In this document: in pieces, positions 3,347 through 28,154 of the stretch
How positions within the stretch are numbered: the first letter of the stretch is position 1
How the letters are laid out: the number at the start of each line of letters is the position of its first letter
Source of the DNA: a bacterium ADurb.Bin236
Lineage (GTDB): Bacteria > UBP15 > UBA6099
Assembly: GCA_002069885.1 (NCBI GenBank)
Contig: MWCD01000037.1
Location: 1 to 39,751 of the forward strand
Reading direction: 5' to 3'
DNA length: 39,751 nucleotides
Notes under the pieces: generated by a model
The model's database searches: none
Told to the model about the DNA's origin: nothing
What the model saw: only the letters and a program-made list of their open reading frames with translations
Program-made: the position numbers and the translations under genes

Positions 3347-3374
3347 AAAACCGGGCCTGCGGCCCGGTTTTTTT
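3347..3374. terminator. Bidirectional rho-independent terminator
   Basis: The stem CCGGGCC / GGCCCGG has a TGC loop and is flanked by AAAA on the left and TTTTTTT on the right. On plus it ends transcripts from the PorV-like operon. On minus it also ends in TTTT, 30 bp past the stop of the 59-residue minus-strand gene. It sits exactly between the two convergent units. Confidence 0.9.
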
Positions 3375-3403: not shown

Positions 3404-3583
3404 TTACGCCTTTATATCAATGCCGGTTTCGCTCACATCCGCAATGTTAGCCAGAGGCTCGGCCTGTGCGCGCACCGCTTTATTGAATGCCGAAAGCAAC
3501 TGGATTAGCGCCTCGCCTTGGCTTGAAAAAGACTTGTTCAACACCATGTTCAGACTGGTCATTCCCGCCGGTTCAACCGACAT
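3404..3583 (-). CDS. Small putative motility protein (YjfB-like), sigma-28 controlled
   Basis: 59 residues on the minus strand, ATG complementary to 3581-3583 and TAA at 3404-3406. It begins MSVEPAGMTSLNMVLNKSF and ends VSETGIDIKA. The product is a short, mostly helical, soluble protein. Length, helical body and the terminal G-I-D-I-K-A-like end resemble the YjfB 'putative motility protein' family, whose Bacillus member belongs to the sigma-D regulon. That similarity is from memory and modest. Support for a real gene: a GAAGG ribosome site 9 nt upstream, a near-consensus sigma-28 promoter at 3658-3685 and a terminator 30 bp downstream. It is the only minus-strand gene in the window. Confidence 0.7.
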   Translation of the reverse strand: MSVEPAGMTSLNMVLNKSFSSQGEALIQLLSAFNKAVRAQAEPLANIADVSETGIDIKA

Positions 3584-3657
3584 TGTAATCGCCTTCTTTC
3601 TTTTGCGCCGGATTTTTACGGTTTTCCCGGCGAATTAACTCTTCTCTGTTATGTGTT

Positions 3658-3685
3658 TTATCGGCAGTTTTTCGATGAAACTTTA
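3658..3685 (-). promoter_or_regulatory. Sigma-28 (FliA/SigD) promoter
   Basis: Read on the minus strand, TAAAGTTT (3685-3678), 12 nt, then GCCGATAA (3665-3658). Both halves match the sigma-28 consensus exactly. The spacing from TAAA to GCCGATAA is 16 nt; 15 is the enteric norm and 14-16 is accepted for SigD. The predicted start is near 3651, giving a leader of about 68 nt to the small minus-strand gene. Confidence 0.85.
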
Positions 3686-3747: not shown

Positions 3748-4863
3748 ATGAACGGAAAGGGCAATAAAGTCGCTGTGGCGATGAGCGGGGGAGTGGACAG
3801 CTCCGTTGCGGCTTTGCTGTTGAAAGAGCAGGGCTTTGAGGTGGCCGGGTTCCACATGAGTTTGTTCGACGCGGCGGAAGGCGGCGGCGCGGCTCCCGGC
3901 GCGTGTTGTTCAGAGGAATCTTCTTTGGCCGCACGCGCGGTGTGCGACATCATCGGAGCCGATTTCTTCTGTCTTGACTTAAAAGAAGCGTTCAGAAACT
4001 CGGTTATCGTCCCATTCGTCGAATCATACCTCGCGGGCCGCACCCCGAACCCGTGCGTCGAGTGCAACAGAGCAGTAAAGTTCGACGCGCTGCTCAAGGA
4101 CATTAAAGGACTCGGATTCGATTTCCTTGCGACCGGGCATTACGCGCGGCGTGAACGCGACGGCGACAGGTGGCGGTTGCGGAGGGGCGCGGACAGCCTC
4201 AAGGATCAGTCTTATTTCCTTTACATACTGGATTCGGCCGCGCTCGAATCAATCCTTTTTCCTCTCGGAGAACTGAAAAAAGAGGAAGTGCGCCGGATCG
4301 CCGTCCGGGCGGGCCTCCCATCCGCCGAAAGAGAGGAAAGCCAAGATATTTGTTTCGCCGGGGAAGAGGCGTATGAACAGGTGATAGAGCGCGCGCGGCC
4401 CGGGGGATTTGCTCCCGGCCCGATTTTCGATGTTTCCGGAAAAGAAATCGGCCGACACTCAGGAATAGTCAACTACACGGTGGGACAGAGGCGCGGAATG
4501 GGCGTGAGCGCCGCCGAACCATTGTACGTGCTTAAAATTCTGGGGTCTGAAAACGCGATAATTGCAGGGCCGAGAAGCGAGCTTGCGGCGTCGGGGCTGG
4601 CTTTCGCCGAAGCCGTTTTTCAGTTTGGCGAGCCTCGCCTAGGCGCCTTTTACGACGCGGTGGTCAGGCATAAGTCAAAACCTGTGAAAGCAGAATATAA
4701 GGGGATATATCGCTGTGGCCAAGCAGAAGCGGCGGGACGACGCTTGCATTCCATAATATTCGAAAATTCCGTCGACGGAATAGCCCCCGGACAGAGCGTG
4801 GTTCTTTACGACGGGGACATGGTGGCGGGCGGCGGAATAATCGAAAAAGCGATTGAAAAATAA
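3748..4863 (+). CDS. mnmA: tRNA-specific 2-thiouridylase MnmA
   Basis: 371 residues. The enzyme activates U34 of Glu, Gln and Lys tRNAs with ATP and transfers sulfur to form 2-thiouridine in the cytoplasm. The P-loop is AMSGGVDSSVAALLL at residues 11-25. NPCVECNR holds Cys103 and Cys106, and SQDICFAG holds Cys202. TGHYAR and DQSYFL are further family motifs. The Cys103/Cys202 pair corresponds to the catalytic and persulfide cysteines of E. coli; Cys106 makes a CxxC. ATG 3748 is chosen over the in-frame ATG at 3712 because GGGAG sits just upstream of it and MNGKGNKVAVAMSGG matches the usual N-terminus. The next gene starts 15 bp downstream. Confidence 0.95.
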   Translation: MNGKGNKVAVAMSGGVDSSVAALLLKEQGFEVAGFHMSLFDAAEGGGAAPGACCSEESSLAARAVCDIIGADFFCLDLKEAFRNSVIVPFVESYLAGRTPNPCVECNRAVKFDALLKDIKGLGFDFLATGHYARRERDGDRWRLRRGADSLKDQSYFLYILDSAALESILFPLGELKKEEVRRIAVRAGLPSAEREESQDICFAGEEAYEQVIERARPGGFAPGPIFDVSGKEIGRHSGIVNYTVGQRRGMGVSAAEPLYVLKILGSENAIIAGPRSELAASGLAFAEAVFQFGEPRLGAFYDAVVRHKSKPVKAEYKGIYRCGQAEAAGRRLHSIIFENSVDGIAPGQSVVLYDGDMVAGGGIIEKAIEK

Positions 4864-5981: not shown

Positions 5982-6009
5982 TTGACATTACGGATATGAG
6001 AAGTAATAT
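5982..6009 (+). promoter_or_regulatory. Sigma-70-type promoter for the H1-like gene
   Basis: TTGACA at 5982-5987, a 16-nt spacer, then TAATAT at 6004-6009. The predicted start is near 6016, 37 nt before the ATG. The sequence around it is AT-rich compared with its neighbours. Confidence 0.75.
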
Positions 6010-6052
6010 ATGTAACTATAGTCAGTATTTTCTATACGAAGGGAGGTGCAAA

Positions 6053-6244
6053 ATGGCGAAGAAGGTAGCGAAAAAGGCAGCCCCGAAGAAAGTTGTAAAA
6101 AAGGCGGCTCCGAAGAAAAAAGCCGCGAAGAAGGTCGTGAAGAAAGCGGCCCCGAAGAAAGTCGTGAAAAAGGCGGCCCCGAAGAAAGTCGTGAAAAAGG
6201 CGGCCCCGAAGAAAGTCGCGAAAAAAGTAGCGAAAAAGAAATAA
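6053..6244 (+). CDS. Lysine/alanine-rich histone H1-like protein
   Basis: 63 residues made almost wholly of Lys, Ala, Val and Pro. It begins MAKKVAKKAAPKK and repeats a KKVVKKAAP unit about four times, like the tail of eukaryotic histone H1 and bacterial Hc1/Hc2- or BpH1-type proteins. It is expected to bind DNA (or RNA) non-specifically through charge. The ATG at 6053 is chosen because GGGAGGTG lies 5 nt before it; an upstream in-frame ATG at 5996 falls inside the promoter. The gene is monocistronic, with promoter at 5982-6009 and terminator at 6278-6306. Repeats at DNA level make copy-number change by slippage likely. Confidence 0.85.
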   Translation: MAKKVAKKAAPKKVVKKAAPKKKAAKKVVKKAAPKKVVKKAAPKKVVKKAAPKKVAKKVAKKK

Positions 6245-10713: not shown

Positions 10714-11927
10714 CTGGAGGAAGAAATGGGAAAAGAAAAATTTGATCGAAAGAAGCCGCACGTGAACGTGGGAACGATCGGGCACGTGGATCATGGCAAG
10801 ACGACATTGACGAGCGCGTTGACGAGGGTATTGGCGAACGCGGGGTTGGCAAAGCACATGGCGTTTGACGTGATAGACAAGGCGCCTGAAGAGAAAGCCA
10901 GAGGGATAACGATAGCGACGGCGCACGTGGAATACGAGACGATGCAAAGGCACTACGCGCACGTGGACTGTCCGGGGCACGCGGATTATATCAAGAACAT
11001 GATAACGGGCGCGGCGCAGATGGACGGAGCGGTGCTGGTGGTGGGATCGGACGACGGGCCGATGCCGCAGACGAGGGAGCACATACTGCTGGCCAGACAG
11101 GTTGGAGTGCCGCACATAGTGGTGTTCATGAACAAAGTGGACATGGTGGACGACCCGGAGTTGCTGGACTTGGTTGAGATGGAGTTGAGGGATCTGCTGA
11201 GCAAGTACGATTTTCCGGGAGACGAGATACCGATCGTGCGAGGAAGCGCGCTGAAGGCGATGGAGAGCGCGGAGTGGGAGAGAGGGAAAGACAAGTACAT
11301 AGACGCGATATACGAATTGTTGGACGCGATGGACTCATACATACCGATGCCGGTGAGAGACACGGACAAGCCGTTCCTGATGCCGGTGGAAGACGTGTTC
11401 AGCATAACGGGGAGAGGGACGGTGGCGACGGGAAGGATCGAGCGCGGAGTGATCAAGGTGCAGGAAGAAGTGGAACTGGTGGGATTGAAGGACACGCGCA
11501 AGACGGTGGTGACGGGAGTGGAGATGTTCCGCAAGCTGCTGGATCAGGGGCAGGCCGGGGACAACGTGGGGCTGCTGCTGAGAGGGATAGGGAAAGACGA
11601 GATAGAGCGAGGGATGGTGTTGGCGAAGACGGGATCGACGAAGCCGCACACGAAGTTTCGAGGAAGGGTGTACATACTGCAAAAAGAGGAAGGCGGCAGA
11701 CACAAGCCGTTCTTCAAAGGATACAGGCCGCAGTTTTACTTCAGGACGACGGACGTGACGGGAGACATCGACCTGCCGGCGGGAGTGGACATGGTGATGC
11801 CGGGAGACGAGATAGACATAGCGGTGTCGCTGATCACGCCGATAGCGATGGAGCAGGGACTGAGGTTCGCGATCCGCGAGGGCGGACGCACGGTGGGCGC
11901 GGGCGTCATCACCGAAATAATTGAATA
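10714..11927 (+). repeat. Exact repeat, tuf copy 1
   Basis: About 1,214 bp shared without visible difference with 26940-28153. The identity starts 12 nt before the ATG, covering the ribosome site, and stops inside the stop codon (TAG here, TAA in the other copy). The flanks are unrelated. The pattern is that of gene conversion between duplicate tuf genes. Confidence 0.9.
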
Positions 11928-11928
11928 G
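10726..11928 (+). CDS. tuf: Elongation factor Tu, copy 1
   Basis: 400 residues. EF-Tu carries aminoacyl-tRNA to the ribosomal A site as a GTP complex. The G motifs are GHVDHGKT (G1), RGITI (G2), DCPGH (G3), NKVD (G4) and GSAL (G5). Domains 2 and 3 follow, with [13 protein letters not shown] and a C-terminal domain ending VITEIIE. GGAGG lies 5 nt before the ATG. It is cotranscribed with four upstream tRNAs, as E. coli tufB is. The protein is identical to the copy at 26952. Isoleucine is mostly encoded by AUA (18 of 28 by hand count), unusual for so highly expressed a gene. Confidence 0.98.
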
Positions 11929-26939: not shown

Positions 26940-28153
26940 CTGGAGGAAGAAATGGGAAAAGAAAAATTTGATCGAAAGAAGCCGCACGTGAACGTGGGAA
27001 CGATCGGGCACGTGGATCATGGCAAGACGACATTGACGAGCGCGTTGACGAGGGTATTGGCGAACGCGGGGTTGGCAAAGCACATGGCGTTTGACGTGAT
27101 AGACAAGGCGCCTGAAGAGAAAGCCAGAGGGATAACGATAGCGACGGCGCACGTGGAATACGAGACGATGCAAAGGCACTACGCGCACGTGGACTGTCCG
27201 GGGCACGCGGATTATATCAAGAACATGATAACGGGCGCGGCGCAGATGGACGGAGCGGTGCTGGTGGTGGGATCGGACGACGGGCCGATGCCGCAGACGA
27301 GGGAGCACATACTGCTGGCCAGACAGGTTGGAGTGCCGCACATAGTGGTGTTCATGAACAAAGTGGACATGGTGGACGACCCGGAGTTGCTGGACTTGGT
27401 TGAGATGGAGTTGAGGGATCTGCTGAGCAAGTACGATTTTCCGGGAGACGAGATACCGATCGTGCGAGGAAGCGCGCTGAAGGCGATGGAGAGCGCGGAG
27501 TGGGAGAGAGGGAAAGACAAGTACATAGACGCGATATACGAATTGTTGGACGCGATGGACTCATACATACCGATGCCGGTGAGAGACACGGACAAGCCGT
27601 TCCTGATGCCGGTGGAAGACGTGTTCAGCATAACGGGGAGAGGGACGGTGGCGACGGGAAGGATCGAGCGCGGAGTGATCAAGGTGCAGGAAGAAGTGGA
27701 ACTGGTGGGATTGAAGGACACGCGCAAGACGGTGGTGACGGGAGTGGAGATGTTCCGCAAGCTGCTGGATCAGGGGCAGGCCGGGGACAACGTGGGGCTG
27801 CTGCTGAGAGGGATAGGGAAAGACGAGATAGAGCGAGGGATGGTGTTGGCGAAGACGGGATCGACGAAGCCGCACACGAAGTTTCGAGGAAGGGTGTACA
27901 TACTGCAAAAAGAGGAAGGCGGCAGACACAAGCCGTTCTTCAAAGGATACAGGCCGCAGTTTTACTTCAGGACGACGGACGTGACGGGAGACATCGACCT
28001 GCCGGCGGGAGTGGACATGGTGATGCCGGGAGACGAGATAGACATAGCGGTGTCGCTGATCACGCCGATAGCGATGGAGCAGGGACTGAGGTTCGCGATC
28101 CGCGAGGGCGGACGCACGGTGGGCGCGGGCGTCATCACCGAAATAATTGAATA
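26940..28153 (+). repeat. Exact repeat, tuf copy 2
   Basis: Second copy of the 1,214-bp unit described at 10714-11927. The left boundary is just after a CCGCGG-6 nt-CCGCGG palindromic hairpin at 26913-26930, and the right boundary falls within the stop codon. Confidence 0.9.
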
Positions 28154-28154
28154 A
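26952..28154 (+). CDS. tuf: Elongation factor Tu, copy 2
   Basis: 400 residues, identical in protein and apparently in DNA to the copy at 10726, except that it ends in TAA rather than TAG. This copy is in the str position (rpsL-rpsG-fusA-tuf), equivalent to E. coli tufA, and rpsJ follows after only 11 bp, joining the str and S10 blocks into one unit. The shared ribosome site GGAGG is part of the conserved repeat. Confidence 0.98.

Follow-up and report, generated by a model that had tools for sequence, protein, structure and literature searches.

Background

Small proteins of the YjfB type (PF14070) accompany flagella in many phyla. In the flagellar superoperons of other bacteria, YjfB is found together with sigma-28 and FapA as "an uncharacterized small protein" (PMC11607428), and the literature searched yielded no functional study of it, B. 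subtilis included. The gene described here resembles those of YjfB-type proteins in its product of ~60 residues, the mostly helical character of that product, its hydrophobic-D-hydrophobic (hDhxA) C-terminal tail, the type of its promoter and its presence in a genome with sigma-28 and FapA; it differs from them in the N-terminus of the protein and in a monocistronic locus beside mnmA. As far as sequence can tell, it probably encodes a sigma-28-controlled, YjfB-like flagellar micro-protein, best read as a divergent variant of a type of protein that is already known. A divergent branch of this kind, in which conservation is limited to part of the helix and the hDhxA tail, points to the residues that matter. 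The DNA analysed, hereafter the window, is a stretch of 39,751 nucleotides of contig MWCD01000037.1 from bacterium ADurb.Bin236 (assembly GCA_002069885.1).

A conserved micro-gene behind a consensus sigma-28 promoter

A preliminary description of the window had reported a 59-codon ORF on the minus strand, preceded by exact sigma-28 promoter halves 12 nt apart and by a ribosome site, and followed by a terminator some 30 bp past the stop. All of these elements were recovered (Table 1), the ribosome site being a modest one and the stem of the bidirectional terminator starting ~33 bp beyond the stop codon. The accompanying statement that this is the only minus-strand gene is plausible rather than proven gene by gene, since the long ORFs found on that strand in other parts of the window are for the most part shadows of plus-strand genes.

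Table 1. Coordinates of the micro-gene, its signals and its divergent neighbour in the window.
Feature	Position	Strand	Basis
59-aa YjfB-like micro-protein gene	3404..3583 (stop codon included)	-	ATG start; conserved, phylum-wide family, purifying selection
Sigma-28 promoter, -35 box TAAAGTTT	3678..3685	-	Exact consensus; identical in 4/4 genus genomes
Sigma-28 promoter, -10 box GCCGATAA	3658..3665	-	Exact consensus; 12-nt spacer; identical in 4/4 genus genomes
Predicted 5' leader	3584..3651	-	Inferred from promoter position; kept in genus
Leader stem-loop CGCCGG...CCGGCG (predicted stem)	3606..3632	-	Arms kept in 4/4 genus genomes
Shine-Dalgarno-like GAAGG	3592..3596	-	8 nt before ATG; sequence
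Bidirectional intrinsic terminator serving the micro-gene	3347..3371	.	Hairpin and T-rich tail kept in genus
Divergent neighbour mnmA (tRNA 2-thiouridylase)	3748..4863	+	PF03054, E 2.9e-70; context only

The promoter was the sole match to TAAAGTTT-N12-GCCGATAA in the window even when three mismatches were allowed, with 0.17 matches expected from shuffled sequences, and a version of the motif with an 11-nt spacer matched nowhere in the window. Across the 3.87-Mb genome, a looser form of the motif returned six sites against none for the reversed control; the five sites other than that of the micro-gene look mostly like chance matches inside coding sequence. While both boxes were letter-perfect in the four genus genomes, several spacer positions had changed in the most distant of these (catcgaaaaact versus cgagaaaaatat), the pattern to be expected of a working promoter and not of a chance one. 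Transcription of the micro-gene would start ~7 nt past the -10 box, at about window position 3651 on the minus strand.

The 59-residue protein is encoded in all four genus genomes with 93-97% identity, and mnmA also adjoins the micro-gene in the genus copy L002. Synonymous and nonsynonymous changes between the window copy and its three orthologues stood at 9:0, 14:2 and 9:1 over 51 codons; judged by these substitutions, the ORF is under purifying selection. That a real protein gene of the sigma-28 type lies here is, on these comparisons, almost certain. A role of the transcript as an RNA, with an incidental ORF, is suggested by sister loci in which a sigma-28-driven candidate sRNA is found directly behind the gene; that element is absent from the window locus, the synonymous excess is strong and the protein is conserved across the phylum, making this reading scarcely credible. 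The leader fold as a whole did not beat shuffled sequences (z -1.09), and an Rfam scan of the window matched tRNAs alone.

The flagellar regulon of the genome

A FliA/WhiG sigma factor is encoded in the same genome, scoring 256 bits against an NCBIfam curated cut-off of 189.6. Its gene adjoins that of FapA on contig C82, whereas the micro-gene is located on contig C37. Upstream of fliA are genes which, read by eye, we take to be flhA, flhF and flhG; FlgN and a rod-binding protein were also identified in the genome. The flagellin_N domain gave eleven matches, many for one genome. Several flagellin-type genes carry promoters of the same form as that of the micro-gene (TAAAGTTA-N11-GCCGATAA, TAAAGGCT-N11-GTCGATAT and TAAAGAAA-N12-GCCGATGA), the last of which indicates that the N12 spacer is not confined to the micro-gene in this genome.

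The preliminary description had assigned the micro-gene to the motility regulon, to be abandoned if the ORF or its promoter were not conserved in related genomes or if the genome lacked a sigma-28 gene, and to be strengthened by a promoter common to flagellin or chemotaxis genes. Neither ground for rejection was found, the flagellin promoters agreed with the expectation, and the assignment is thus supported by a consensus promoter conserved in relatives, by a matching sigma factor encoded in the same genome and by flagellin genes under promoters of the same form. Sigma-28 control would make the micro-gene a late (class III) flagellar gene, here monocistronic, expressed together with flagellin.

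The usual place of the FlgM gene is between the gene for the rod-binding protein and flgN. In this genome that interval spans 133 bp (L108:10017-10150), too small for FlgM, and no match to FlgM (PF04316) was obtained genome-wide at E up to 1. The micro-protein might thus stand in for FlgM as a sigma-28-controlled, helical inhibitor of sigma-28 that is relieved by export, both proteins being small helical products of sigma-28-controlled genes. The window protein, however, is shorter than FlgM, bears no sequence similarity to it and has no Pfam match to PF04316, while FlgM is divergent and readily missed by searches. Moreover, B. subtilis, in our search controls, has both a PF14070 protein and FlgM, so that in this species the YjfB-type protein is distinct from FlgM. 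We regard a FlgM stand-in as very improbable and retain the reading of a YjfB-like late flagellar protein.

Two further observations concern the flagellar genes of this genome. In the flagellin leaders L024-L033, the Shine-Dalgarno site is preceded by short stem-loops that carry GGA within the loop or close to it (e.g. GTCGATCACGGATGATCGAC), an arrangement that would be expected of CsrA sites. Between the FlhG-like gene and fliA (L111:4710-5018) is a gene for a 103-aa protein with two membrane spans and no Pfam match, having the position and the look of FlgV (PMC11607428).

A protein family present throughout the phylum

A profile built from the first seven sequences found members of the family in all seven genomes of the phylum, and a ten-member profile had no match among the remaining 379 genomes searched. 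Residues Q22, L26, L29, P43 and D56 are invariant in the family, and Q40, L44, N46 and A59 nearly so. AlphaFold2 modelled the protein as a single long helix (residues 6-51) with loose ends, at a mean pLDDT of 72 and a pTM of 0.41 from a shallow alignment. A sigma-28-like site is located 102-145 nt upstream of the start codon in each of the ten members, matching the promoter at 16 of 16 positions in the four orthologues, at 14 in L034, at 13 in L037, L038 and L039, and at 12 in L035 and L036. The sites of the last two could be due to chance; the promoter is strong in the remaining eight.

Relation to YjfB

Resemblance to YjfB had been suggested at the outset, together with a search of the 59 residues against PF14070. 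The PF14070 HMM did not match the window protein at E up to 10, the gathering score being 27 bits, nor did it match five sister proteins; in the window genome it gave nothing at E 0.001, and its one match above that E-value (13.9 bits, E 0.23) lay in an unrelated place. Scans of the 59 residues against the whole of Pfam, NCBIfam and PHROGs returned no match, and BLAST detected no similarity between the window protein and a bona fide PF14070 protein from this phylum. We therefore keep the window protein out of PF14070, the HMM test that defines membership having given no match.

Profile-profile comparison, in contrast, gave evidence of remote similarity. Aligned with hhalign to a PF14070-type profile, the family scored 23.8 (E 1.1e-4, probability 57%), both alignments being shallow (10 and 14 sequences). 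The highest scores from shuffled profiles were 13.3 when columns were permuted (n=100), 18.8 with local shuffling (n=200) and 21.5 with the tail kept in place (n=200), so that none of the 500 shuffles scored as high as the real comparison; the reversed profile scored 10.4. The body of the family without its tail still outscored all 200 local shuffles. The window protein is matched in length by PF14070-type proteins of other bacteria and of one genome of the phylum (L048), which also show a similar LL-x-LL helix pattern and the same hDhxA tail and often have a sigma-28-type promoter in front. The window protein conforms to the PF14070 layout of about 55-70 residues ending in a hydrophobic-D-hydrophobic tail. 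Adjoining sigma-28 and FapA genes, in contrast, are missing from its surroundings, the micro-gene lying outside the flagellar superoperon. The window family has a conserved aQ-x2-PLaN stretch ahead of the tail that was not seen in the PF14070 set.

The same data may be explained by convergence, an unrelated micro-protein of the sigma-28 regulon having come to look like YjfB by virtue of a short helix and an acidic tail. Short helical profiles match easily, as the 21.5 reached by shuffles with the tail in place illustrates; HMM and BLAST searches drew no link to PF14070; and one genome of the phylum (G005) encodes a true PF14070 protein alongside a member of the family. Against this, the real score tops all controls with contributions from both body and tail, and length, promoter type and C-terminus are all the same as in PF14070 proteins. 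Convergence is on these grounds unlikely, if a good deal less so than a FlgM stand-in, and there is a good chance, roughly three in four in our estimation of the profiles, that the window protein is remote kin of YjfB. This kinship is likely, short of proof. Of the original proposals, then, the YjfB likeness holds as remote profile similarity and not as PF14070 membership, and the N-terminus, noted as distinct, does differ from that of YjfB and other PF14070 proteins. The "new flagellar or chemotaxis micro-protein" is in our data most likely a new, phylum-limited branch of the YjfB kind, and we found nothing that points to chemotaxis.

With a single predicted helix and loose ends, the simplest model of the YjfB-like protein is that of a helical adaptor binding a partner of late assembly. 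A small, soluble helical protein, it would bind through the Q-x3-L-x2-L face of its helix and its C-terminal hDhxA tail to a factor involved in export, in the filament or in the basal body, and this binding would tune the building of the filament. Such a role in tuning flagellar assembly is put forward tentatively, as a somewhat doubtful proposal.

Just after FapA, on contig C82 of the window genome (L111:8783-9118), is a 111-aa ORF with a charged, Q-rich middle that ends in GIIDIRI, a C-terminal tail resembling those of YjfB and of the window protein (GIDIKA). Such a tail may be a docking motif common to sigma-28-linked small proteins.

A candidate sRNA beside sister genes

Four sister genes (L034, L035, L037 and L038) have behind them a second sigma-28-like promoter, followed by GACATGGTTGCTGCTAGCCACAGCAACTCCTCCT and a terminator. 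This ~65-nt element has its own sigma-28-like promoter and comprises an invariant hairpin, an anti-Shine-Dalgarno UCCUCCU and a terminator; it looks by its sequence like an undescribed sigma-28-driven sRNA candidate with an anti-Shine-Dalgarno segment. Its 28-nt core occurs in 11 copies (L070-L080) over all seven genomes of the phylum, one or two in each, and the reversed control yielded none. The other copies are free-standing with promoters of their own (e.g. TAAAGTTTAACGCAGGATGGCCGATAA); the single copy of the window genome is at L073:1491-1573 (contig C46:3896-3977). From TGACATGG through UCCUCCU, every position is invariant bar two in the hairpin loop, and two copies were predicted to fold as a hairpin, a free UCCUCCU and a terminator, with z about -3. 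The covariance models of Rfam 15 did not match the element in L034, L035, L037 or L038 at E up to 1, and outside the phylum matches to the covariance model of the sRNA share just a terminator-like hairpin with it. The sequence being near-invariant, no two-sided changes were found as covariation. A short reading frame within the element (MVAASHSNSS...) is unlikely to be translated, as its ends vary among copies, it has no Shine-Dalgarno site and third positions are conserved too.

E. coli has the sigma-28-dependent sRNAs MotR, FliX, UhpU and FlgO. These likewise constitute an RNA branch of the sigma-28 regulon (PMC10578931) but are UTR-derived, whereas the candidate is mostly found as free-standing units with their own promoter. 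Closer in plan are CjNC1 and CjNC4 of Campylobacter (PMC4626219), which share with the candidate one or two copies per genome, a sigma-28 promoter, a conserved stretch that can pair with ribosome-binding sites and a variable terminator; the candidate differs from them in the invariant 5' hairpin ahead of UCCUCCU, in its length of about 65 nt and in the phylum to which it belongs.

It is conceivable, at somewhat less than even chances, that the phylum has a late flagellar module with two sigma-28 outputs, the YjfB-like micro-protein and a ~65-nt sRNA silencing flagellar mRNAs. In such a module, the sRNA would sit directly behind sister copies of the gene and elsewhere in every genome of the phylum, and its free UCCUCCU would serve as a feedback brake by keeping flagellar mRNAs from being translated. 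Duplex energies predicted for the sRNA ranged from -5.6 to -15.2 kcal/mol with flagellin leaders versus -6.4 to -16.1 kcal/mol with ordinary window genes, an overlap that allows no target to be named. If real, the candidate sRNA would add an RNA component to the sigma-28 regulon of bacteria other than Proteobacteria and Campylobacterota, one nearly invariant over a whole small, uncultured phylum, and would widen the idea of anti-Shine-Dalgarno RNAs in late flagellar regulons.

Other features of the window

Two 400-aa ORFs at 10726-11928 and 26952-28154 share their start context, each contains an inner ORF of 216 aa, and the pair gives the appearance of a duplicated tuf. At 5996-6244, the window encodes a small Lys/Ala-rich, histone-H1-like protein built of AAPKKVVKK repeats.
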